From positions 1 to 21,571 of IMG/VR virus record IMGVR_UViG_3300032246_001980: DNA of 21,571 nt. The stretch is one strand, 5' to 3'. The position numbers were made by a program, and so were the translations under genes. Each line of letters begins with the position of its first letter. Positions within the stretch are counted from its first letter, which is position 1. The notes beneath the pieces are model-generated. The model saw only the letters and a program-made list of their open reading frames with translations. It was not told where the DNA came from and searched no databases. The stretch is from a virus. Below are positions 988-21,522 of the stretch, piece by piece.

Positions 988-3900
988 TTAGATATTTTCA
1001 AACGAAGCTCCTGTTGGAGTGATTAAGAACTCAATGTCGATGAATTCTAAAGCCTTCGTAGGTTTTAAGTAAATTTTACCTGTAAGTGTATTTCTATCTA
1101 AATCTTCAGGAGAAGATGAAACTGTTACACGGAAATCGTATAAACCTCTGTCTCTTCTGATAGAATCTAAAATTGGATTAACACTGTCTAAAAATTGTTG
1201 TCTAACGATTTGGTCGTTTTGTTCAAACAACAATCTTACAGCCACCGCTGAAATTAACTTACGAGCTTGTAACAACAATCTTCTAACATTTAATCTGTTA
1301 AGAGCTGTGTCAGCAACTTGTAAAGTTTTGTTACCCCAAATTACTGTTCCAACATCAGAGAAAGTTGCGATAGGGTTAATTCTACCTTGATACAAAGTAT
1401 CTCTATCTTCTTGAGTTAGTTTTTGTCTAGCTTTAATTGAATTTACAAGACCTCTTGTGTAACCCGCTGATGCGAACCAAGGAAATGCAATGTTATCTGT
1501 TAGAGCCAAGTTTCTACAAACTTCACCTGTTGGTGGTAAGTAGATTTGCGTATTGTTAACAGTATCTCTTGTTAAAATCCAAGGATAATAAGTTGCGGTA
1601 TAGTTAGAATCAATTCCTGTATTATTTAAGTTATCCACCGCTTCTTGAGAATAGATTACATCATATTGACTTGAAGCATCAGGAGTATACATATTGTAAT
1701 CAGGAGTTGTTACGATATAAACCGAATCAGCTCTTTGGTACTGAATCATATCAATCGCCTCTTCACATAAGTTAGAGTTGTTAACATAATCAATACTTGC
1801 AGTTGCAAAAACATTAATGTTAGTAGATTCAGGGTTTGAGAAAGTAAGAATACCAAGTAAATAAGCGTAATAGTCTGTATTTGCAAAATCTTGTGTATTG
1901 TTTTGAACCACAATTCTTTTGAATAAACCTTCACCTGTAGCAGCTGGATATCTTGAAGAAGGATAAGCTCCCGCTAAATAACCACTAGCACCTAATTGGA
2001 ATCTATCTTGGTTTGTTCTATGTTCATTATAGATATCCCAACCATCAAATCCACCTGCAAAACATACTGTGTACTTTCTTGAATAAATAAAGTAGTAAGG
2101 GTTTTCTTGAGTTTCTGGGTCTGTTCTAAAATCAGCGTCTCCACATTCAAACGCTGTTTGACCACTTGTTTGATAAGTGTTAGCAATTGTTACAACCGTA
2201 GCACCTGAGTCCATATGGAAACCTTTACTAACAATGTTCCAAGGAACCGCCTCTTGAGTTGGATTACTAATCCAGCTTGTTGGATTTTGTTTTCCTTTAT
2301 ATTGTAAGAATGATTCATCCACACCATATTGTGTTGAAAAACCTAAATAACTTCTTCTTACAATATCACCAGCAGATTCTGTTGTATTTGCCGCTCCACC
2401 AAAAGGAGGGTTAGCAATTGTTTCACCTGGGTAAAAATATTTTGTTTTATATTGAATGTAAGGTGATGGATATTCAGAAACATTATAATACTCTCTTTGA
2501 GTATATCCACGGAATCCACAAGGTATTGCATCTATTGGAGCTGTTGGTGACATCTCAATCATAACATACTTTGAAATTAAAACGTATTCTCCGTTTGAAG
2601 TACCAATCTTAACACCAATAAAGTTGTTAGATGCTGGGTCTAAATTACAGTTAGTAAATTTCTCAATAACAACTGGATTTGCATCTGTATCATAGAAATT
2701 TCTAACTAATACATCAAAAGACATATTATTAAAAGAAAGATTTGCAATAGAAACTTTAACTTCTGTGTTAGCAGCATCTCCATCAGATATTGAAATAAAT
2801 TTAAATAAATCATAAACCTTATTACCTCTTAACTCAGATACTAAGAACGGAGTTTCAGGGGATTGATATCTTTCCAAATTGTACGCAATTGATGTGTTAT
2901 TTTCACTTCTAGCATCTAGTAAGTCAATTAAATTACAATTAATTCCTCTAATATATCCTTGAGAATATGCGATATTTAAAGATGCTTGGTAAGACTCCTC
3001 AACAAACACAGGAACCGTAAATCTTGATTTACCAAAATTATCAACACCAAATACTTTTGTAAGATACTTTGATGAAGAAGCTAATAATGATGTTTCAAAT
3101 TGGAATGTATTATTATCATTAGTAACACCTGATATTAAGAATGTACCATAAGGGTTTTTACTTACACCAGAATACGCTCCATCACAAACCATAGTTAAAC
3201 CTGTAGTTTCATAAATTGGTCCGTGATTTTGTGAATCAGAATTATTAGTAAATAAAGCAACACCTCTTGAACGTAAAGTTGCAACAACCATATTGTTATA
3301 TGCTGAGTATGCAGTTCCTGAGAATGAATATGTGTTACCTGATATCGTACCTGTAACAACATCACCGTTAACCGATAAAGCGTTAACAATATAATCAAAA
3401 GAATAACCTGAATAACTATCATCTGAATAATTTTCAAAGTTAGCATAATACCAAGAATCGTTTCCACCAGCACTTAAATCGTTATATTCGATATCACCAT
3501 TTCCTGGTACACCATAAACATCCTTAAGATTATAATATTGATTAGTTAATGAAAACCAATCTTCAGCCGGTATTGAACCATACATTACTGAAGTGTTTGC
3601 CGATAATGTTGTTGAATCAGCAATTTGACTAATATATGTATTAAAGTCAGTTTGTAATGTTGAAGTACTTCCGTCTGCTAATCTGTATAGAACATTCAAA
3701 TTAGCCTCCACTTGTGCAGGTAATTCTGTTGTATCTAAGAAAGTAATTGTGTTTCCAGATGCACTACCTGTAAACGCCGCAACAAATGGTGTTGCCGCAG
3801 AAGATGATGTAAACCCAATAGTTAAAGGGTCAACATTTGCTGTTACAGTGATACTCCAAGATGGACCCGCATCATATCCTGATAAACCCAATACTCTTGT

Positions 3901-4188
3901 TACGAATAATTGGTTTGATTGTTGTAAGTAAGATTTTGCGATATACGCAGCTTCATACTTAGGAATTTGTGTGTTCACAAATTTCACTGGTTCTGTACCA
4001 CCAAAATAGGCTTGGAACTCATCATAGTTAGTTATAAAAATTGGTTCGAAAGCGGGGCCCTTTATTGTTTCCCCAACCACACCTAAAGTCGTTACACCCA
4101 CACTTTGGGCTACGAACGATAAGTCCGTTTCAGAAGTGTATACACCAGGTGAAACGTACACCTTTTTGTTTGCTTGTGCTGTTGCCAT
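988..4188 (-). CDS. gp18: Contractile tail sheath protein (gp18 type), enlarged
   Basis: The sheath subunit polymerises around the tail tube and contracts to drive DNA injection. The N-terminus carries the family signature (YVSPGVYTSETD near residues 11-22, then a GVVGETIKGPAF stretch and a YFGG near 61-64). The C-terminus has the conserved block with VIWGNKTL (about residues 949-956), a long helix and the GLYDFRVTVSSSPEDLDRN...GKIYLKPTKALEFI segment (about 1015-1051). At 1066 residues it is some 400 longer than T4 gp18 (659). The extra length lies in the middle (about residues 130-700), which is rich in Ser, Thr, Asn and Tyr and likely forms surface domains. The start ATG is preceded by an AT-rich leader without a Shine-Dalgarno sequence. 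A GC hairpin follows the stop. Shorter minus-strand and plus-strand frames inside it are shadows. Confidence 0.95.
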   Translation of the reverse strand: MATAQANKKVYVSPGVYTSETDLSFVAQSVGVTTLGVVGETIKGPAFEPIFITNYDEFQAYFGGTEPVKFVNTQIPKYEAAYIAKSYLQQSNQLFVTRVLGLSGYDAGPSWSITVTANVDPLTIGFTSSSAATPFVAAFTGSASGNTITFLDTTELPAQVEANLNVLYRLADGSTSTLQTDFNTYISQIADSTTLSANTSVMYGSIPAEDWFSLTNQYYNLKDVYGVPGNGDIEYNDLSAGGNDSWYYANFENYSDDSYSGYSFDYIVNALSVNGDVVTGTISGNTYSFSGTAYSAYNNMVVATLRSRGVALFTNNSDSQNHGPIYETTGLTMVCDGAYSGVSKNPYGTFLISGVTNDNNTFQFETSLLASSSKYLTKVFGVDNFGKSRFTVPVFVEESYQASLNIAYSQGYIRGINCNLIDLLDARSENNTSIAYNLERYQSPETPFLVSELRGNKVYDLFKFISISDGDAANTEVKVSIANLSFNNMSFDVLVRNFYDTDANPVVIEKFTNCNLDPASNNFIGVKIGTSNGEYVLISKYVMIEMSPTAPIDAIPCGFRGYTQREYYNVSEYPSPYIQYKTKYFYPGETIANPPFGGAANTTESAGDIVRRSYLGFSTQYGVDESFLQYKGKQNPTSWISNPTQEAVPWNIVSKGFHMDSGATVVTIANTYQTSGQTAFECGDADFRTDPETQENPYYFIYSRKYTVCFAGGFDGWDIYNEHRTNQDRFQLGASGYLAGAYPSSRYPAATGEGLFKRIVVQNNTQDFANTDYYAYLLGILTFSNPESTNINVFATASIDYVNNSNLCEEAIDMIQYQRADSVYIVTTPDYNMYTPDASSQYDVIYSQEAVDNLNNTGIDSNYTATYYPWILTRDTVNNTQIYLPPTGEVCRNLALTDNIAFPWFASAGYTRGLVNSIKARQKLTQEDRDTLYQGRINPIATFSDVGTVIWGNKTLQVADTALNRLNVRRLLLQARKLISAVAVRLLFEQNDQIVRQQFLDSVNPILDSIRRDRGLYDFRVTVSSSPEDLDRNTLTGKIYLKPTKALEFIDIEFLITPTGASFENI

Positions 4189-6065: not shown

Positions 6066-6464
6066 ATGAGGATAAATCCAACAACCAAAATTTATGTTAA
6101 AAGTAGCTCAATTCATGGGTTAGGCGTTTTTGCATCTGAAGACATTAAAGAAGGGGAAATCTTAGAAGTCTGTAATGTAATTGATATGGGTATGAGATTT
6201 GGAGAATCTAGTCACATATTAATTGACTATAGATTTAATTGGCCTCAAGGAGGGAATTCTTGGGAAAAACAAGTGGTACCAACAGGTTTTGGATTACTTT
6301 ATAATCACAGTAATACCCCAAATGCTGCGTGGAGGTCAAATCTCGAAAACAATACATTTGAATTTTACTCTACAAAAAATATAAAATCTGATGAAGAAAT
6401 TTTTGTGTGGTATGGCGACATTAATTATTGGAATGACGGAAGGACCCACACTAATGTTATTTAA
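6066..6464 (+). CDS. SET-domain protein (probable lysine methyltransferase)
   Basis: A 132-residue stand-alone SET domain. SET enzymes move a methyl group from S-adenosylmethionine to protein lysines. The family blocks are all present: the cofactor loop IHGLGVFASEDIKEGE (residues 16-31), the NHSNTPNAAW block (80-89), matching the usual N-H-S-x-x-P-N signature, and the C-terminal IKSDEEIFVWYGD (106-118) with the catalytic-type Tyr. The start is taken at ATG 6066; an upstream TTG would add residues overlapping the divergent promoter. It is the first gene of a plus-strand run and the SNF2 gene follows after 5 bp. The target could be a virion or host protein. Stand-alone SET proteins are uncommon in phages. 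Confidence 0.85.
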   Translation: MRINPTTKIYVKSSSIHGLGVFASEDIKEGEILEVCNVIDMGMRFGESSHILIDYRFNWPQGGNSWEKQVVPTGFGLLYNHSNTPNAAWRSNLENNTFEFYSTKNIKSDEEIFVWYGDINYWNDGRTHTNVI

Positions 6465-8260: not shown

Positions 8261-9799
8261 ATGAACAAAACAGAAGAGAAAATTCAACTAACAGAAAACA
8301 AAATAATTGAATCAAAAGTTGAAGAACAAGCCAATCAGTTAATTACTGAAATGAAAAAAATTGGAATAGAAAAATTACCCTATTCCTACTCAGCCCTTAA
8401 ACAATTCATTGACCCAGAGACAATGAACTTTCACTACAACAAACATTATAAAGGTTATGTTGATAAGTTAAATGATGCTCTTTCAAAGAAAAAATACGGG
8501 GACTTAGAGTTAGAACAAATTATCAAAACGATAAGTAGGTTCGATAAATCAATCAGAAACAATGCGGGTGGGGCATTTAACCACGCATTATTCTGGAACA
8601 TGCTAACACCAACACCAAAAAAATTAGAGGGTGACCTTTATAAAAAAATTATAAAAAATTTTGGTAGTTTTCCCGCATTTAAGAAAAAGTTTGAAGCAAT
8701 TGCCAAGGATAGGTTTGGTTCAGGTTGGGTATGGTTAGTTCTTACTGCCAATAACAGTTTAAAAATTATGTCTACACCAAACCAAGACAATCCGTTAATG
8801 AACGTGATTGAGAATGGTGGATTTCCACTTTTAGGTTTAGACCTATGGGAACACGCATATTATCTAAAGTATAGAAACAAAAGAGATGAATATATTGCAA
8901 ACTTTTGGAAAGTTGTGAATTGGGATTTTGTAACCAAAATGTACGAAATGAAAACTAAAACAAAGTTAGCTGAATCGTTAGAATTAAAACAACTTATGTC
9001 TGAAGGAAAATCGGAAGCCTGTTCTCCTGAAAAAACTGATTTCTACAGAAAGTTATTTAACACCCACAAAGAAATTGAAACAAAATACAGAGCAGGTATT
9101 GAAAAAATTTTAATCGAAGTATTCAGTGACTTGTATGTTTCAAATCCACCAGAGGGGGAATTACCAGGAATATTTAATTTAGAAAATAATGGAAGGTCCG
9201 TTATTAACAAGTTGAATACAAATTACACAACATTCTGTATTTTACTTAATGATATCAATCAAGTGATTAAAACAATCGAAGGTAAAAAACCAATTGTGTT
9301 TAAAGGTAAAACCCCAAAAGAACAAGTTAAAGAAGTTGTAAGATTTGTTAACGCTTTAGACCATTTTAAATACAGAATATTCGATACAAAAAGTTTAACA
9401 TTTATTAATATAATGAGAACTTTAGAAGAAAAAAATGCAATGGGTGATAAAAGAGAAGAAATAACGGCAACAATATTAAGAAGATTTTTTGGTAAAGATG
9501 TTAAAGTTGAACAAGTTGGTAAATTGGGTAGTAAAGAAGATGCTTTATCAGGTGTTGATTTAAAATTAACTAACGGAGACAAAACAGAAACCGCACAAGT
9601 AAAACCATACAAAGTTAAAGTTGTTGATGAAGAAAAAGGAACAATTACACTTTTTGGTACCGGTAAAGTTAAACATTATTATACCGATTTATTAATTTTT
9701 CAAAAAGGAAAAAACGTTTTAATCTTTAATCAAAAACCTAAAATAATGGGAGGTAATTATGTGTTCCCAATTGATGCGTTGAAGTTAAATATAGAATAA
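8261..9799 (+). CDS. Fe/Mn superoxide dismutase domain fused to a C-terminal (possibly PD-(D/E)XK-like) domain
   Basis: A 512-residue protein about 2.5 times the length of a normal SOD. Residues about 37-232 form a complete Fe/Mn SOD: LPYSYSALKQFIDPETMNFHYNKH with metal ligand His58, NHALFW with His108, and LGLDLWEHAYYLKY with Asp194 and His198. The ligand spacing and the DxWEHAYY signature match active enzymes, which convert superoxide to oxygen and hydrogen peroxide. Residues about 235-400 are charged and helical. Residues about 396-510 read REEITATILRRFF, then GVDLKL, then ETAQVKPYK; Asp433 and Gln446-x-Lys448 fit the D-xn-(E/Q)-x-K core of restriction-endonuclease-like folds. No signal peptide. 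It sits between the SNF2 helicase and the neck gene. The SOD call is firm; the nuclease-like reading is a pattern guess. Confidence 0.88.
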   Translation: MNKTEEKIQLTENKIIESKVEEQANQLITEMKKIGIEKLPYSYSALKQFIDPETMNFHYNKHYKGYVDKLNDALSKKKYGDLELEQIIKTISRFDKSIRNNAGGAFNHALFWNMLTPTPKKLEGDLYKKIIKNFGSFPAFKKKFEAIAKDRFGSGWVWLVLTANNSLKIMSTPNQDNPLMNVIENGGFPLLGLDLWEHAYYLKYRNKRDEYIANFWKVVNWDFVTKMYEMKTKTKLAESLELKQLMSEGKSEACSPEKTDFYRKLFNTHKEIETKYRAGIEKILIEVFSDLYVSNPPEGELPGIFNLENNGRSVINKLNTNYTTFCILLNDINQVIKTIEGKKPIVFKGKTPKEQVKEVVRFVNALDHFKYRIFDTKSLTFINIMRTLEEKNAMGDKREEITATILRRFFGKDVKVEQVGKLGSKEDALSGVDLKLTNGDKTETAQVKPYKVKVVDEEKGTITLFGTGKVKHYYTDLLIFQKGKNVLIFNQKPKIMGGNYVFPIDALKLNIE

Positions 9800-14537: not shown

Positions 14538-14558
14538 AACAATAAATATATTGTTATG
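14535..14558 (-). promoter_or_regulatory. 10-bp perfect inverted repeat over a start codon
   Basis: CATAACAATA (14535-14544), a 4-bp AATA spacer, and TATTGTTATG (14549-14558) form a perfect dyad. It spans the stop of the upstream glycosyltransferase (14554-14556), the whole 16-bp gap and the ATG of the 126-aa gene. In the minus-strand mRNA the AUG lies in the 3' arm of the hairpin. A TATTTAT motif (14542-14548) is embedded in it. It could be an operator for a dimeric repressor or a translational lock. Confidence 0.55.
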
Positions 14559-16233
14559 ACTCTTTACGTAAACCCCCGTCGTAATGTTCGAATCTATTAT
14601 GTTCAGTTGGGGTTAAAAGTAACAATCCAGGATATAATTCACCTTTTTTAACAAGTTGATACATATGACTCATCCATGTTTGTTCGAATGGGTGTGCCCA
14701 TGTTGTATCCAAAAACATTTTCTTATTTCCTTCTCTTGTCACAATCTGAGGCCAGTTACAATAGTAAACTTCACCTACAGCATATGGTAATCCTTTATGT
14801 GATAAGACAGCATCGAATCTACTTTTTGGTGCATTTGGGTCTAATCCCATTTGTGGAAGTCTTGGTTTACCAGGCCAGAATTCATCTCTAACGTGTTGAG
14901 GTACATTATACCAAGCCCATTGAGTTCCATTGTCACCATAAAATTCTGTGTAATTTAATTTTAAGAAATCAAAATTTTCTTTCTTAACTATTTCTAAAGA
15001 TTTTGTAAATAAATTTTTAACAACTCTATTGAATCCATTTCTACACACTTCTCCTTCTTTAGGGTAGAAAAACATGTCGTCTTCAAAGAACAAGTAGAAA
15101 TCTAAATCCTGTTCATTAAAATGTTCAGCAATCCACTGTCTTCCTCCACAAATACCTAAGTTATCTTTTTTGATGTGTTCAAACCCATGTTCTTCACATA
15201 ACTTTGCATATTCATCAAATGTTGAAGTATCTGACGAATTATCTAACAAAAATTTCTTTGTCTTTAACAGATAATCATTATCGTAAAGTTTCATTGAATT
15301 AATCAACGTTTCAAATTGATTTGGGCTATTGAATGTTATAACATATAATCCAACCTTATTAGTATCTAAATTAGATTGAGACCTAAGAATTACAGATGTT
15401 TCAGATTTAACTTTTAATTCATCATTCTTCAATTCTTCAAAGAACCTACCAATTAATCCGTTACCATCGATTTCAAAGTAATTAATTAAATCACTGTGTT
15501 TGTAACACATTATAGAGAAAATAGATTCTTCAGTACCCATATAACCTTCTTCAAGTGTAGTTTTCAATAAACTATAATAGATACCATTTATGTCTCCAAT
15601 TGAATCTTTAGGTCCACCAAAAAAACCTCCTCTAGCAACTTTAGTAACTTTATCACCAGCATACTCGTTTAGTTTACTATAGTTAAATCCATGAATTTCA
15701 GTTTCAGCACCATATGGAAAACAGATAAATGAGAACTTTGTAATATACTTTGATAACTTATCTAAAACTTTATCGTGAGTGAAATAACCTGGATGAACAG
15801 TATTAGTTAATCCACCATCAATCCAAAACAAATGTTGTGAATTGAACTGGTCCATTATTTTGGCATCATTAAGTAAAAATACTTTAGACATCACAAGAGG
15901 GTTATAGTTTTCCAATCTTGCTTGTGTTGATTCTTTTAACCAACCTACTTGAGTAGACCAAGTCTCATTAGTTCTGATTTTTTGAATCATATCAAAAAAC
16001 TCATTATTCCTAAACCAGTCTAAAGGTCTTGTGATAAATTGAGTGTTTTCCCTACTTCTTTTACTGAAGACAAAGTCTTTTAATTCTTCGTCTCCAAATA
16101 TTATCATGTTGTTATCAACTTCTAATAATTGTGAAAACTTATCCAAATAGTGTTGGAAAGGTCTTGACCAACCTTCTTGTAGTTCACCTCTACCAATGTT
16201 CCATATTCCTGTTACTAAAGTTATATTACTCAT
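14554..16233 (-). CDS. Two-domain glycosyltransferase: HtrL/YibB-like plus GT2-like
   Basis: A 559-residue fusion. Residues 1 to about 275 resemble the HtrL/YibB family: an ITLVTGIWNIGRG start, HYLDKFSQLLEVDNNMIIFGDEE, the LFWIDGGLTN signature (136-144) and a GGFFGGPKDSI...GTEESIFSIM block (202-241). Residues about 294-559 form a second GT-A-like domain: VGLYVITFNSPNQFETLINSM, a LDNSSD turn, KKDNLGICGGRQW and the acidic FFEDDMFFY motif (Glu384-Asp385-Asp386), likely binding metal and nucleotide sugar. GT2-type enzymes transfer sugars from nucleotide donors. The N-terminal domain is a paralogue of the next gene upstream. It overlaps that gene by 8 bp, so translation is coupled. The sugars used are unknown. 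Confidence 0.8.
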   Translation of the reverse strand: MSNITLVTGIWNIGRGELQEGWSRPFQHYLDKFSQLLEVDNNMIIFGDEELKDFVFSKRSRENTQFITRPLDWFRNNEFFDMIQKIRTNETWSTQVGWLKESTQARLENYNPLVMSKVFLLNDAKIMDQFNSQHLFWIDGGLTNTVHPGYFTHDKVLDKLSKYITKFSFICFPYGAETEIHGFNYSKLNEYAGDKVTKVARGGFFGGPKDSIGDINGIYYSLLKTTLEEGYMGTEESIFSIMCYKHSDLINYFEIDGNGLIGRFFEELKNDELKVKSETSVILRSQSNLDTNKVGLYVITFNSPNQFETLINSMKLYDNDYLLKTKKFLLDNSSDTSTFDEYAKLCEEHGFEHIKKDNLGICGGRQWIAEHFNEQDLDFYLFFEDDMFFYPKEGEVCRNGFNRVVKNLFTKSLEIVKKENFDFLKLNYTEFYGDNGTQWAWYNVPQHVRDEFWPGKPRLPQMGLDPNAPKSRFDAVLSHKGLPYAVGEVYYCNWPQIVTREGNKKMFLDTTWAHPFEQTWMSHMYQLVKKGELYPGLLLLTPTEHNRFEHYDGGLRKES

Positions 16234-17110
16234 AAATTCTATTAAATTCTTCTAATATTCTATAAAAACTTTTATTGTTTTGGAACAACTCTTCTGAGGT
16301 TCCTTGAGGTGCGTTGTCTCTACACCACCAAATGTCGAAATGTTTTCTTACAAATAAATCTCTATTGTTAACATACATTAAAGTTAATATTTGTTCTTCG
16401 TGAGGTAAACCTTCATCTTCAATTAAAATCTTATCTACATAACCCTCGAACATATTAACAATAGTATCCCACTTATCTCTATGACCCCCAAATAATCCAC
16501 CAATAATATGAATACTTCTATCATATTCATTATACCATTTTGGATTCACAGTACCTGACCAATAGTTTCTATCATTCTCTTTACCCCACAACATAAACTT
16601 ATCGCCAGTATCTTCTATTAAGTGTTTTAAAAATTTGTTATTAAACAAATCACTTTCATAGAATCTTCTCATTGGATGTTTATCGTATGTTAGATATTTT
16701 AAAGGTATCAAACCACAGTGAGAAAGTCCGGCATCAATCCAATAGTAGTAATCATAACTTCTGTCTTCATTCCACCACCAGTTCAATTTAAGATATTGTA
16801 TTTCAATACATCTATCACCTCGTTTAATTGCATCAACATCTTTACGAGAATTAATCAAATCTTTAAATTTAGATTCGCTAATATCAAAAGGTTGAAACTT
16901 AAGTTGTTTTTCTGATATATTATTTTCCGTGTAAAAAAATTCTTTTAATGATTCTATCTCTCTTTCTGAAGTGTAGCAGAAAAAATCTGCATCTGTCATC
17001 TTCAATAGTGATAATAAACTATATCTGTAATGTCCTCCCCTTGCAGGTCTTCCACCAAATTCTGTTCCATTTAAATCACTATAAATTGCTGTTATAAATT
17101 TAACCGACAT
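16226..17110 (-). CDS. HtrL/YibB-like glycosyltransferase-type protein
   Basis: A 294-residue protein. It has the family's opening (MSVKFITAIYSDLNGTEFGGRPARGGHYRYSL), the IEIQYLKLNWWW stretch, and the core YYWIDAGLSH signature at about 122-131. A later IIGGLFGGHRDKW block is followed by LPHEEQILTLMY. The same blocks in the same order occur in the N-terminal half of the downstream two-domain enzyme, so the pair are duplicates. HtrL/YibB-type proteins are found in surface-polysaccharide clusters and are treated as glycosyltransferase-like; a precise reaction is not established here. It overlaps the GT25 gene by 11 bp and the next gene by 8 bp, fixing it in one operon. Confidence 0.75.
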   Translation of the reverse strand: MSVKFITAIYSDLNGTEFGGRPARGGHYRYSLLSLLKMTDADFFCYTSEREIESLKEFFYTENNISEKQLKFQPFDISESKFKDLINSRKDVDAIKRGDRCIEIQYLKLNWWWNEDRSYDYYYWIDAGLSHCGLIPLKYLTYDKHPMRRFYESDLFNNKFLKHLIEDTGDKFMLWGKENDRNYWSGTVNPKWYNEYDRSIHIIGGLFGGHRDKWDTIVNMFEGYVDKILIEDEGLPHEEQILTLMYVNNRDLFVRKHFDIWWCRDNAPQGTSEELFQNNKSFYRILEEFNRIYE

Positions 17111-17843
17111 TATATGGTAAATGTTTGTTTTCTTGTTTTATTTTTTTGTTCTCAGGTTCATTAAGATAAGTATGATGAATCTTAATTGGTGAGTATTGAT
17201 TCCAATTATACGTTTGAGTATAGAAGTTATTATACATACCATGAGAAACATCAGAATACGAATTTTTTTGTGGTGCAATTGGTAATACTGGTGTGTAAGA
17301 TTGTAATACAGGATAAACGTGTTTAACTAATTGTTCATCAATAGGGAGAACATAATCACCGCTTTGAAATGCATATTCTTTGATATTTTCTACAAGTTCA
17401 AACGACGACACATCGTAGATAAGAATATTAGTTGCAAATGTTTCAGTTAATCTATCGTGAGGTTTTGGTGGTAAATTAGTTAAATCTAACAACATACTAT
17501 ATTTTTCACTGATGTTGACAGGTCTATTTAAAGTCGGAGCCAAATTCATAACACCAAACTCAATACCCTCAATTTGTTTCTCTAAATCTTCTATAAATGA
17601 TTTTGCATATGGCATGACATCACAATCATCCTCAATAACCATCACACGTTTATACCCTCTTTCTTTAGCAATGTTTATAATTCCTAAGTGAGAAAGGGTA
17701 CAACCCATGTAACTATTTCTATTAACCGCTTTGAAAACTTCATAGTCCCAACCAAGATAGTTTAGTTCAAATTTAATATCTTCTAATCTATCTGGTCTAA
17801 TTTCTAAATTGACTACGAACTTTGGTAATTCATTGAATTTCAT
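17100..17843 (-). CDS. Glycosyltransferase family 25 (LPS/galactosyl-type)
   Basis: A 247-residue GT25 enzyme. The family start is VVNLEIRPDRLEDIKFEL (residues 10-27), then MGCTLSHLGIINIAKERGYKRVMVIEDDC (46-74) with the acidic motif Glu71-Asp72-Asp73. Next come TFATNILIY and, near residue 165-170, PIDEQL. Known GT25 members move galactose or similar sugars onto lipooligosaccharide, and eukaryotic relatives onto collagen hydroxylysine. It starts directly at the stop of the GT60-like gene (TAATG overlap at 17841-17845) and overlaps the next gene, so it is part of a tight glycosylation operon. The last 50 residues are basic and may sit on the surface. Donor and acceptor cannot be read from sequence. 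Confidence 0.88.
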   Translation of the reverse strand: MKFNELPKFVVNLEIRPDRLEDIKFELNYLGWDYEVFKAVNRNSYMGCTLSHLGIINIAKERGYKRVMVIEDDCDVMPYAKSFIEDLEKQIEGIEFGVMNLAPTLNRPVNISEKYSMLLDLTNLPPKPHDRLTETFATNILIYDVSSFELVENIKEYAFQSGDYVLPIDEQLVKHVYPVLQSYTPVLPIAPQKNSYSDVSHGMYNNFYTQTYNWNQYSPIKIHHTYLNEPENKKIKQENKHLPYNVG

Positions 17844-19111
17844 TAACTAACGTGGTTATGATTTAATTGACCTGTTAATCTATCACACCAACCTTTTGAT
17901 TCTGAGTGTGGCCAAACAACCCAATAAGCTGGTAATTCTGTTGTTTGGAATTCTCTCCAAACTTTACAATATCCATCAGGGTCTCTCATGAAACCAGCAA
18001 TTTCATTTTTATCTGCATCCTTTCTGAATAAAGTTTCGTCTTTATCATTATGGAATGCAACAACCCAAAAGTCATAATCTTTCTCAGGAACACTTGAATA
18101 ACCAACGTCAATACAATGTTTGTATATTGTTGCAAAACTGGCCTTCCACTCTTCTTCTGTTTCAAAATTATAAGGACTTGGTGGATATTGTTTATCTAAA
18201 CAATGTTTATCAATTGCTCTTTTTTCGAACAATAAACCTGAATATTTTTCATAATCTTTTAATGTTCTAACAGTACCAAATCCATAAGGACCATCATGAC
18301 CTTCTTGAGTCTCACCATCCATACCAAATAACTTTCTGTTTGTTAAGTGAGATATTCTATTCTTTTCACCCCAAGTCTTATCATCATCCCATTGTTTAGT
18401 TCTACCTTTACGAGTATACTCGTGGTAAACTACAGGGATGTGTGGGTGGAATAAATCATAACCCCATGTGTAAGCTCTTGCGGCAATTGAAATCTCTTCT
18501 CCGTGGAAATAGTATTCAGGGTTATGTTGAACTTCAGTTGAGAACTCTCCTAATGTAAAGCAGAAATGAGCCGAATAAAATCTTGCGGTAACAGGTTTCT
18601 TCATTTCTCTCCAGCCTGGAATTGTTTCGGGTAGAAAGAAAACAGCACCTTCAGGAATAAACCTATCAAAGGCCATTCTCCAAGCATCGGTTGCTCTACC
18701 TGCAGGGTCATTATCAGGGTCAAAGGATGGTACATAACCCGTAAGTAGAGGTTTCTTATACCCATCCTTTTGTAACCCCTTTATCATTTTAATTAAGATA
18801 TCATCCCAATCTTTAACAAATCTCATGTGAGAATCAATTTGCATTGTATAAGTCTCACCATCATATAGTTGTTGAGTTAAATTTCTTGCCCAACAAACAC
18901 CTTTAGCGTCTTGATATGGAATATCTAAGATTTTAAATCTTTTGTCGTTTCTGAATTCGTCGAGGTTATCAAAACCATCAGTTTCACTGAATTGTCTTGC
19001 GATTGAGAAAACCAAATTTTTTGGTTTCTTAGCATTTGCAATCATATCTTTTAAAGTAGGGATTAACTGTGGGTCCCTATATGATGCGATTTGAATAAAA
19101 ATTTTGCTCAT
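17843..19111 (-). CDS. GT60-like polypeptide N-acetylglucosaminyltransferase
   Basis: A 422-residue protein of the GlcNAc-transferase family that includes Skp1 hydroxyproline GlcNAc-transferase and protozoan polypeptide alpha-GlcNAc-transferases. Evidence: IFIQIASYRDPQLIPTLKDM (residues 4-23), GVCWARNLTQQLYDGE (71-86), the IDSHMRF motif (92-98; Asp93-Ser-His95 replaces the usual DxD), FHGEEISIAARAYTWGYDLF (202-221) and HPHIPVVYHEYTRKG (222-236). The last 130 residues are family-like but less conserved. Known relatives act on proteins, not lipids. It is the first gene after a strong terminator, and downstream genes overlap it, so it leads the operon. The gene just upstream encodes a Thr/Pro-rich protein, a natural acceptor. 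No signal peptide or membrane segment, so it acts in the cytoplasm. Confidence 0.85.
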   Translation of the reverse strand: MSKIFIQIASYRDPQLIPTLKDMIANAKKPKNLVFSIARQFSETDGFDNLDEFRNDKRFKILDIPYQDAKGVCWARNLTQQLYDGETYTMQIDSHMRFVKDWDDILIKMIKGLQKDGYKKPLLTGYVPSFDPDNDPAGRATDAWRMAFDRFIPEGAVFFLPETIPGWREMKKPVTARFYSAHFCFTLGEFSTEVQHNPEYYFHGEEISIAARAYTWGYDLFHPHIPVVYHEYTRKGRTKQWDDDKTWGEKNRISHLTNRKLFGMDGETQEGHDGPYGFGTVRTLKDYEKYSGLLFEKRAIDKHCLDKQYPPSPYNFETEEEWKASFATIYKHCIDVGYSSVPEKDYDFWVVAFHNDKDETLFRKDADKNEIAGFMRDPDGYCKVWREFQTTELPAYWVVWPHSESKGWCDRLTGQLNHNHVS

Positions 19112-19188: not shown

Positions 19189-20256
19189 TTAACAAAGATT
19201 ACTTGATGTAATAAGACCTGAACCACCCGTTACTTGATAGAATCTTGTACCGTTAGAGTAATATCCATTAGGTGCTGGTGTGGTCTTAGATGAGTTAAGG
19301 TATAATGTTTCTCCAACATCAGGTCCATCAGCTTGAGATGCTAAACCATAAATATTTTGACGTGATGCAACACACGCATCGTTAGATGTTGCTCCTGTAC
19401 CTAAACTATAAACAACATATGTTGGTGTTGAACTTGGTGTTAATGATGGAGTTGGTGTTAATGATGAAGTTGGTGTAGGTGTTGGAGTTGCCAAACAAAC
19501 GGAGATTGCTCCTACAGTACCTTCGCTATCTAATTCATAAACATCACCATCATAAACATAATATCCTGCTAAATTAACCTCAGGACATAATCCTGAAGAA
19601 CATCCGTAAAAGAATGTATTATTTGAGAATATTGGGTCATTACCAAATATTGTTGCGGTAAGTGATGTATAACAAGCATCAGAAGATGTGTCTTCACTGT
19701 GTGGAACAACAAATCTATATCTTGTAGGTTGAGGGTCAGTTGGTGATGGTGTTGGTGTAATTGTAGATGTTACAGATGGTGTATTCGTTTGAGTTTGTGT
19801 ATTAGTTGGTGTTTGTGTTGGAGTACCTGTTGGTGTTCCAGTGTTAGTTGGAGTTTGAGTATTTGTTGGAGTTTGAGTATTTGTTGGAGTTTGAGTATTT
19901 GTTGGAGTTTGAGTATTTGTTGGAGTTTGAGTATTTGTTGGAGTAACACTTGGTGTTGGTGTATTTGTACCTGTATTAGTTGGTGTTTGTGTCGGTGTTG
20001 GTGTGTTTGTTGCAGTATTAGTTGGAGTTTGTGTTGGAGTTGGAGTTACTTTTGGTGGAGGGAACACACCTAAATCAACTTCAACAATACTTGTTGGAAA
20101 TGCTGTTGAGTAAGTTGTATCTAATAACCAAATGTTTTTTGTTTGGTTTGGTGCCAACTCAACTTGGTATTCCCACATTGCGTCGTCACATCTTTGATAA
20201 TTAAAGTTCACAATTGTTGAACCCGTATTCGTTAGTGTATATTTGCTACATGCCAT
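19189..20256 (-). CDS. Mucin-like Thr/Pro repeat protein with duplicated C-terminal Cys-bearing domain
   Basis: A 355-residue protein. Residues 1-66 form a compact beta-rich head with Cys3 and Cys23. Residues about 71-178 are almost only Thr, Pro, Asn, Gln, Gly and Ser, with five exact TNTQTP repeats at 107-136. Residues about 180-254 and 281-355 are two copies of one domain: SDAC near the start, an IFG/IYG turn, FFY or LYL, AGYY or NGYY, and a closing Cys. A second Thr/Pro linker (about 257-280) joins them. The shape (head, extended stalk, paired end domains) suits a virion fibre or adhesin, and no secretion signal is present. It has its own promoter region and terminator. The adjacent glycosyltransferases could decorate its Thr residues. 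The repeats may change copy number, varying stalk length. No enzymatic motif is seen. Confidence 0.85.
   Translation of the reverse strand: MACSKYTLTNTGSTIVNFNYQRCDDAMWEYQVELAPNQTKNIWLLDTTYSTAFPTSIVEVDLGVFPPPKVTPTPTQTPTNTATNTPTPTQTPTNTGTNTPTPSVTPTNTQTPTNTQTPTNTQTPTNTQTPTNTQTPTNTGTPTGTPTQTPTNTQTQTNTPSVTSTITPTPSPTDPQPTRYRFVVPHSEDTSSDACYTSLTATIFGNDPIFSNNTFFYGCSSGLCPEVNLAGYYVYDGDVYELDSEGTVGAISVCLATPTPTPTSSLTPTPSLTPSSTPTYVVYSLGTGATSNDACVASRQNIYGLASQADGPDVGETLYLNSSKTTPAPNGYYSNGTRFYQVTGGSGLITSSNLC
19847..19936 (-). repeat. Five perfect 18-bp tandem repeats
   Basis: The plus-strand unit GTTGGAGTTTGAGTATTT is present five times without a mismatch at 19847-19936, with a partial sixth to 19944. Each unit encodes six residues (a TNTQTP permutation) in the minus-strand protein. 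Flanking Thr/Pro codons are diverged versions of the same unit. Exact identity in a short array suggests recent slippage or unequal recombination. As the unit is a multiple of three, copy changes keep the frame. Confidence 0.97.
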
Positions 20257-20442: not shown

Positions 20443-21522
20443 TTAACTCAATAATCCCGAAAGATAATCAGAAGTTAAATCAGTCCAAGTACCTGCGGAT
20501 GTTACACTATTCCATGTCCACGCAGAAAATCCATCAACTTGAACATAAGATTCATAACCATAATCTGTGTTTATAAAAATACCATTACACAAATATACTG
20601 GATTTTCACTAACATATCCTAAAGCCGCTAATGTTCCTCCTGTAACTGCCGCTGGTAAATAATCATATAAAAATTGATTAGCGTTATTTCTAATAACTCT
20701 TGTAGCATGTACCATACTATCACCATATGTCATTGCTGATAAAGTTACTCTTTCAGGCCATAACATATCTTGAAGATAATAAAATTCATAATCTCCAGTT
20801 CCTGACCAAGATGGAAAGATTGGTTGTGTTGCACCTGATGCAATAACTTGAGCGATTGCTCCAGCAACTGCACCGCAAGTTGTTGACAAAGTAGTACCAC
20901 TAACGTTACCTTTACGATAGATGTAACCTACATCACCATCAAGAGTAATTCCAATATGTGGTGTACTTGAAATAAATAATGTTCCTCCAGAAATTGTTGA
21001 ACCTGTTGTTATATGACTTGCCCACGCTCCCAAACCAACTTGGCCAACAAATGGATAACCAGCTAAACCTCCTGACATAAATGGCCCAAGAAGAGAACTC
21101 ATCGATGCAGGAAATTGACCAATATTACTAACTCCTTGTACTACTAGAGCATCAACATCATCAGAACAAATTCCTTCAGCATATACAATATCTTCAGGTG
21201 CAAACCCTAATGATTGCATAAATCCTGTAGTATATGAACCCCAAAAACTAGATAAAACAGAACCTGTAAATGTTAAATTAACAGTTTCAGTATACGCCGA
21301 TTGAGCTGGTGCTGGTTCAGGTATTGTTATGGTATATTCTGTTTGATATTCAGTGATGAATAAATCGTACTCTCCATATGGATATTCTGAATAATAATTA
21401 AATGGAACTATTTGGGTACCTAAACTAATTGTTCCTCCAGTTACTGGCTTAAAAACAGTAGGATTTGATGTTTTTCCTATTAAACTGTTACTTGAGATTC
21501 TAACTCCTTCTATTGTTGACAT
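20443..21522 (-). CDS. LCIB/LCIC-like beta-carbonic-anhydrase-type protein with an N-terminal phage domain
   Basis: A 359-residue protein. Residues about 100-230 match my recollection of the LCIB/LCIC family (algal and bacterial limiting-CO2-inducible proteins with a beta-carbonic-anhydrase fold). Key blocks are VYAEGICSDDVDALV (113-127), the GGLAGYPFVGQVGLGAWASH stretch (151-170), STPHIGITLDGDVGYIYRKG (186-205) and TTCGAVAGAI (214-223). Candidate zinc ligands are Cys119, His189 and Cys216, with an Asp at 121 or 122 and Arg203 as the catalytic pair. Carbonic anhydrases interconvert CO2 and bicarbonate, but some family members are inactive. Residues 1 to about 75 (GTISLGTQIVPFNYYSEYPYG) resemble a short beta module of phage structural proteins, so the product may be virion-attached. 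The gene is followed by the Thr/Pro-rich gene on the same strand. The family call rests on motif recall, not alignment. Confidence 0.62.
   Translation of the reverse strand: MSTIEGVRISSNSLIGKTSNPTVFKPVTGGTISLGTQIVPFNYYSEYPYGEYDLFITEYQTEYTITIPEPAPAQSAYTETVNLTFTGSVLSSFWGSYTTGFMQSLGFAPEDIVYAEGICSDDVDALVVQGVSNIGQFPASMSSLLGPFMSGGLAGYPFVGQVGLGAWASHITTGSTISGGTLFISSTPHIGITLDGDVGYIYRKGNVSGTTLSTTCGAVAGAIAQVIASGATQPIFPSWSGTGDYEFYYLQDMLWPERVTLSAMTYGDSMVHATRVIRNNANQFLYDYLPAAVTGGTLAALGYVSENPVYLCNGIFINTDYGYESYVQVDGFSAWTWNSVTSAGTWTDLTSDYLSGLLS

Follow-up and report, generated by a model that had tools for sequence, protein, structure and literature searches.

A putative LCIB/theta-type carbonic anhydrase joined to exchangeable N-terminal modules in large T4-like phages

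Introduction

The closest described relatives of the protein reported here belong to the LCIB/LCIC family, for which structures are available of PtLCIB4 (5b5y), 6kfs, and the Chlamydomonas proteins LCIB (5k5w) and LCIC (5b5x). Purified Chlamydomonas LCIB and LCIC have the fold and the zinc site without carbonic anhydrase (CA) activity (PMC5876011), and therefore fold and ligands are no proof of activity; in these reportedly inactive proteins, His162/161 and Arg194/193 are disordered (PMC5876011). Classical beta-carbonic anhydrases, such as those of Coccomyxa (3ucj) and H. influenzae (2a8c), are alike in overall fold and in the Cys-His-Cys zinc scheme. Among viruses, it is the giant viruses of eukaryotes that have been reported to encode a carbonic anhydrase, treated there as an auxiliary metabolic gene (PMC13037468); these are not tailed phages, and a structural fusion is absent from the relevant sections of that paper. 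Most enzymes known on the particles of tailed phages cleave cell walls, polysaccharides or DNA.

Here we describe an LCIB gene on a virus record of 21,571 bases (IMG/VR IMGVR_UViG_3300032246_001980), the whole of which is referred to as the window. The phage copies share with the LCIB/LCIC family a fold common to the whole core (Z 19-26), the order of the sequence blocks and the Cys/Asp/His/His/Arg/Cys set, with a Ser following the first Cys as in PtLCIB4. They differ in being only about 25% identical to it, in forming a separate long-branch clade, in carrying phage-specific insertions (e.g. residues 128-145) and in being fused to structural modules. Stand-alone LCIB proteins of bacteria (metagenome-assembled genomes of Prolixibacteraceae, Balneolaceae, Planctomycetota, Chloroflexota and Spirochaetota) have the same active-site residues, but they are ~230 aa long, lack extra modules and phage context, and are 23-30% identical to the window protein. 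The classical beta-carbonic anhydrases are more distant, with Z scores of only ~10-12 and no significant sequence match.

Results

An LCIB-family protein and its predicted fold

The gene is encoded on the minus strand (Table 1), and the plus-strand frame at 20443-21522 is riddled with stops. The Pfam profile LCIB_C_CA (PF18599) matches residues 102-332 of the window protein with an E-value of 1.1e-28 and 100.5 bits, the curated cut-off being 25 bits, and a phmmer search of PDB sequences returned 6kfs (E 2.9e-15), along with PtLCIB4 and Chlamydomonas LCIC and LCIB. An AlphaFold2 model, built without templates from 46 aligned sequences (window, phage and bacterial), is largely confident for the core from residue 72 onwards and mostly above 90 for the last 120 residues, with low confidence in the loop 128-145. 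LCIB-family entries ranked at the top when this model was used in Foldseek (6kfs, E 2e-14). In particular, VIA-align superposed residues 72-358 on 6kfs with a Z score of 26.3 (243/248 residues, rmsd 2.3), followed by PtLCIB4 (25.9) and Chlamydomonas LCIB (19.6) and LCIC (19.0), with classical beta-carbonic anhydrases only at about 12 and below. No meaningful match to the core model was present among the viral protein structures of BFVD. The window protein is a genuine LCIB/theta-CA family member that occurs here in a new context, its family and fold being close to certain.

Table 1. Position of the LCIB gene, its parts and its neighbour in the window
Feature	Position	Strand	Extent	Remark
LCIB-type carbonic-anhydrase / phage structural fusion gene	20443..21522	minus	359 aa	
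Docking-like module, type A	21298..21522	minus	75 aa	predicted six-strand Ig-like beta domain
LCIB_C_CA / theta-type beta-carbonic anhydrase core	20524..21273	minus	residues 84-333	
Cys119-Ser120-Asp121	21160..21168	minus		inferred first Zn ligand and Asp of Asp-Arg pair
His170	21013..21015	minus		His161/162 of Chlamydomonas LCIC/LCIB by spacing; H88 of PtLCIB4
His189	20956..20958	minus		inferred Zn ligand
Arg203	20914..20916	minus		Arg193/194 of LCIC/LCIB by spacing
Cys216	20875..20877	minus		inferred Zn ligand; aligns with CCG of algal LCIB
Pro/Thr-repeat fibre-like gene	19189..20256	minus		neighbour in the window; N-terminal module unlike that of the LCIB gene

An invariant active site

Across 49 phage and 37 bacterial sequences, Cys119, Asp121, His170, His189, Arg203 and Cys216 are invariant wherever aligned. 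Following the beta-CA scheme, we infer that zinc is bound by Cys119, His189 and Cys216 and that Asp121 and Arg203 form the pair beside it, an assignment that rests on a review (PMC5876011), on the PDB alignments and on what is generally known of beta-carbonic anhydrases. Counting along the PDB sequence alignment, H88 of PtLCIB4 aligns with His170, and Ser120 is the same residue as in PtLCIB4; the His-to-Arg spacing is 32 residues in Chlamydomonas LCIB/LCIC and 33 in the window (His170/Arg203). The core evolves under purifying selection, with dN/dS values of 0.05-0.23 between phage homologues (15 pairs). Since the active-site residues are invariant and the core is under purifying selection, a working enzyme is favoured, though not proven; carbonic anhydrase activity of the phage protein is likely, but it remains an inference in the absence of CO2 hydration data.

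An earlier note on this locus, made from the sequence alone, had placed the gene at 20443-21522 and recognised four LCIB-type sequence blocks in it. The coordinates held, the strand not having been given there, and all four blocks were found in the order stated; their recognition was correct, as the Pfam and PDB sequence matches demonstrate. Two of the checks that it had named, a search with the LCIB_C_CA profile (E 1.1e-28) and superposition on LCIB structures (Z 26.3/25.9), were passed. The residue numbers that it gave for Cys119, His189 and Cys216 were correct, and the Asp/Arg pair that it saw nearby held as Asp121 and Arg203, both invariant wherever aligned; the second invariant histidine, His170, was not in it and is added by the present analysis. 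The clustering of the Cys and His residues round a zinc ion is inferred only by superposition on, and alignment to, known structures, and not from measured distances.

Several N-terminal modules on one core

The LCIB core of the phages is fused to several unrelated N-terminal modules. The window and most contigs carry a 75-aa module (type A); a 776-aa protein is encoded on L028 and L029 (type B); the N-terminus starts MAQTKDQLTALLN on L088 and L091 (type C); L089 combines a short N-terminus with a C-terminal extension (type D); and L090 and L093-L097 share the N-terminus MPTYIELQNNG (type E). The 776-aa protein of L028 (9671-12001, plus strand) ends in a C-terminal part of ~400 aa that is of unknown fold and weakly matches PHROG 14952.

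When modelled by itself, the type-A module folds with high confidence into a beta domain of six strands (pLDDT 91.5). Its fold search returned generic Ig-like matches only, the best at Z 6.1 and within background, and since nothing beyond such matches (Z <=6.1) was obtained, no named virion domain is claimed for it. A profile HMM of the module also picks up Pro/Thr-repeat proteins encoded nearby and others related to them, the best six at E 4e-26 to 2e-8, and on L001 the module is 49% identical to its counterpart in the upstream gene. Likewise, the type-C module that is joined to LCIB on L088 forms the N-terminus of a separate gene adjoining LCIB on L096, with 83% identity over 59 residues. 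Module swapping is shown by these contigs; swapping of this kind is usual among fibres and other particle proteins.

Distribution and origin of the phage copies

The LCIB core occurs in a family of large uncultured tailed phages, on about 67 distinct IMG/VR contigs found in three scans, the largest being 272 kb, a count from which re-trimmed duplicates have been taken out. No match was found by tblastn among 50,697 phage records (INPHARED) for the full protein, for the N-terminal module or for the type-C fibre neighbour, and PHROGs held no match to the window LCIB protein. One scan of bacterial and archaeal genomes yielded 40 stand-alone homologues (L101-L140), mostly from Bacteroidota and Balneolota, with a few from Planctomycetota, Chloroflexota and Spirochaetota and one from an archaeal bin. 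The bacteria that carry them (Prolixibacteraceae, Balneolaceae and others) are apparently heterotrophic.

In a maximum-likelihood tree the phage proteins form a single clade (support 100/100, branch length 2.56), separate from bacterial and algal LCIB, the algal rows being fragments. The single clade is shown by the tree; its simplest reading, which we regard as likely, is one acquisition by a phage lineage from a donor that is undetermined.

Gene neighbourhood and host

In the window lineage, the LCIB gene sits between Pro/Thr-repeat/fibre-like and glycosyltransferase genes on one side and DNA polymerase B on the other, beyond which lie a neck protein, a superoxide-dismutase fusion and an SNF2 helicase; it is thus outside the tail cluster, and only beside fibre-like genes. 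On L088, L091 and L093-L096 it lies between the neck (Ad2) gene and the sheath/tube/hub genes, the order in types C and E being head-tail adaptor, two unknown genes, (fibre-like), LCIB, an 82-aa gene, tail sheath, tail tube and baseplate hub. The type B gene is near a major head protein gene. The downstream part of the type C/E order is syntenic with that of Flavobacterium phage immuto (Immutovirus), which has a small protein, sheath, tube, hub and tape measure; the matches are 1.5e-16 for the 82-aa gene, 2e-181 for the sheath (54% identical), 1e-71 for the tube, 2e-95 for the hub and 4e-34 for the tape measure. In immuto, an isolate, the stretch that corresponds to the LCIB slot, just upstream of the syntenic genes, is occupied by structural, tail-fibre and lysozyme genes; these show no homology to the LCIB phages at E 0.01, and a match to LCIB is absent from its record.

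The neighbourhood of structural genes is shown by these contigs. Association of the phage LCIB protein with the virion is likely, but it is inferred from the neighbourhood and from the shared modules, without proteomics. Support was obtained for the suggestion, made before any database search, of a structural module in the first ~75 residues: the type-A module is also found on adjacent Pro/Thr-repeat fibre-like proteins, and in other phages the core is joined to different modules within the tail gene cluster. Literature searches for phage LCIB, or for carbonic anhydrase with phage tail fibres, returned nothing on a phage LCIB. A link to CO2 concentration of the algal type is not supported, as none of the partner carbon families searched for was found in 12 long but incomplete contigs and expression signals are Bacteroidota-like.

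Indeed, a Shine-Dalgarno-like motif precedes only 2% of 215 type-A genes, and their leaders are 52% A. A-rich leaders without Shine-Dalgarno motifs are typical of Bacteroidota. Because the type-A leaders are A-rich and the motif is rare, a Bacteroidota host is indicated, and the type C/E sheath agrees with it; the hosts are thus probably Bacteroidota, an inference from expression signals and from that sheath. The nearest record to the window sheath is from a Microcystis phage, at 31%, and therefore a cyanobacterial host is not excluded for the window lineage. The reaction-centre (Photo_RC), SulP and PEP-carboxylase families were all absent from the 12 long but incomplete relative contigs.

Interpretation and alternatives

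The explanation that we favour, with a probability of roughly 0.55, is that these large T4-like phages bear an active LCIB/theta-type carbonic anhydrase docked on their particle, activity and location being inferred. In this reading the gene would encode a virion protein of two parts, in which the small beta module (residues 1-75) would anchor the protein onto the particle, while the complete core (residues ~84-358) would hold one zinc via Cys119, His189 and Cys216. Asp121-Arg203 and His170 would complete the site, and the core would interconvert CO2 and bicarbonate. The phage lineage would have gained the enzyme once and later shuffled it among structural modules of different kinds. It would work on the host surface, at or just inside the envelope, or soon after entry, and the gain may be a shift in local pH while the phage adsorbs or injects, or the control or supply of bicarbonate early in infection. 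Zinc binding and any benefit are likewise inferred parts of this reading. Several points count against it: purified Chlamydomonas LCIB and LCIC were inactive in spite of their fold and zinc site, the window gene lies outside the tail cluster, its N-terminal module matches no known virion domain, and the N-terminus on L089 is short. For a bolder version, in which a catalytic carbonic anhydrase sits on the tail or neck, alters the pH or the bicarbonate level on the surface of the host or early after entry, and is traded between docking modules like fibre domains, the odds are slightly less than even. If the favoured reading is true, a CO2/bicarbonate enzyme on a particle would add a new type of chemistry to the virion, and a family known mainly from algal carbon concentration would be placed in phages whose hosts are probably heterotrophic.

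Alternatively, the protein could be an intracellular auxiliary metabolic enzyme, made during infection, that provides host carboxylases (nucleotide, fatty-acid, anaplerotic) with bicarbonate or CO2 or buffers pH, with N-terminal modules that serve merely for oligomerisation or solubility. In its favour are the maintenance of the active site by purifying selection and the position of the window-lineage gene, which adjoins DNA polymerase B and is near the superoxide-dismutase fusion, likewise an enzyme. We nevertheless hold both this role and that of the modules to be unlikely, as bacterial LCIBs are stand-alone proteins of ~230 aa whereas nearly all phage copies have extra modules, some of which are common to neighbouring fibre-like or structural genes; moreover, the gene is within the tail cluster in one phage group, and genes for carbon fixation or bicarbonate were otherwise not found in the 12 long contigs. 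It is also improbable that the protein is a structural one without CA activity, in which only the LCIB fold and possibly a zinc of structural function have been retained. The Chlamydomonas proteins, with fold and zinc site but no measured activity (PMC5876011), and the fusion of the core to structural modules speak for it; a pure scaffold is disfavoured because the Asp, Arg and second His, which are invariant together with the zinc ligands wherever aligned in the phage clade, would be needless for it.

A beta-CA-fold enzyme acting on another small substrate, as CS2/COS hydrolases do, or on a molecule of the host surface would be compatible with the beta-CA fold of CS2 hydrolase (3ten, Z 6.6) and with the long branch (2.56) of the phage clade. 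This reading is very unlikely, since LCIB-type carbonic anhydrases are by far the nearest structures and the entire LCIB site is retained. Chance resemblance, a chimeric contig or another artefact, and bacterial contamination can be all but ruled out, given the profile match at E 1e-28 and the homologues on about 67 contigs, many of which also encode a sheath, neck or capsid protein or a DNA polymerase, and nothing was found in favour of them.

Other genes on the LCIB contigs

The window also encodes, at 8261-9799 (plus strand), a 512-aa protein in which a complete Fe/Mn superoxide dismutase (Pfam Sod_Fe_C 1.5e-39, Sod_Fe_N 1.6e-22) is fused to an unknown C-terminal domain. The gene adjoins that of the head-tail adaptor and the fusion is kept in many relatives, the homologue on L016/L012 being 294 aa long and seemingly without the dismutase part. 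A tailed-phage SET-domain protein (Pfam SET 2.5e-14) is encoded at 6066-6464 (plus strand), and the fibre-like genes are flanked at 14554-19111 (minus strand) by a series of glycosyltransferase-like genes (GlcNAc transferase, GT25, HtrL_YibB) that differs in gene content among relatives. The SNF2 helicase homologue of L004 (16783-19662, minus strand; 959 aa) has an intein-like insert past the Walker A motif, which the window copy of 583 aa lacks. The window tail sheath (988-4188, minus strand) has 1066 aa, about twice the 578 aa of the L088 sheath, its C-terminal part being conserved and accompanied by a long N-terminal or inserted region. Finally, the contig that carries the type-D LCIB (L089) has GroES-like and GroEL-like genes at 15667-17620 (plus strand).
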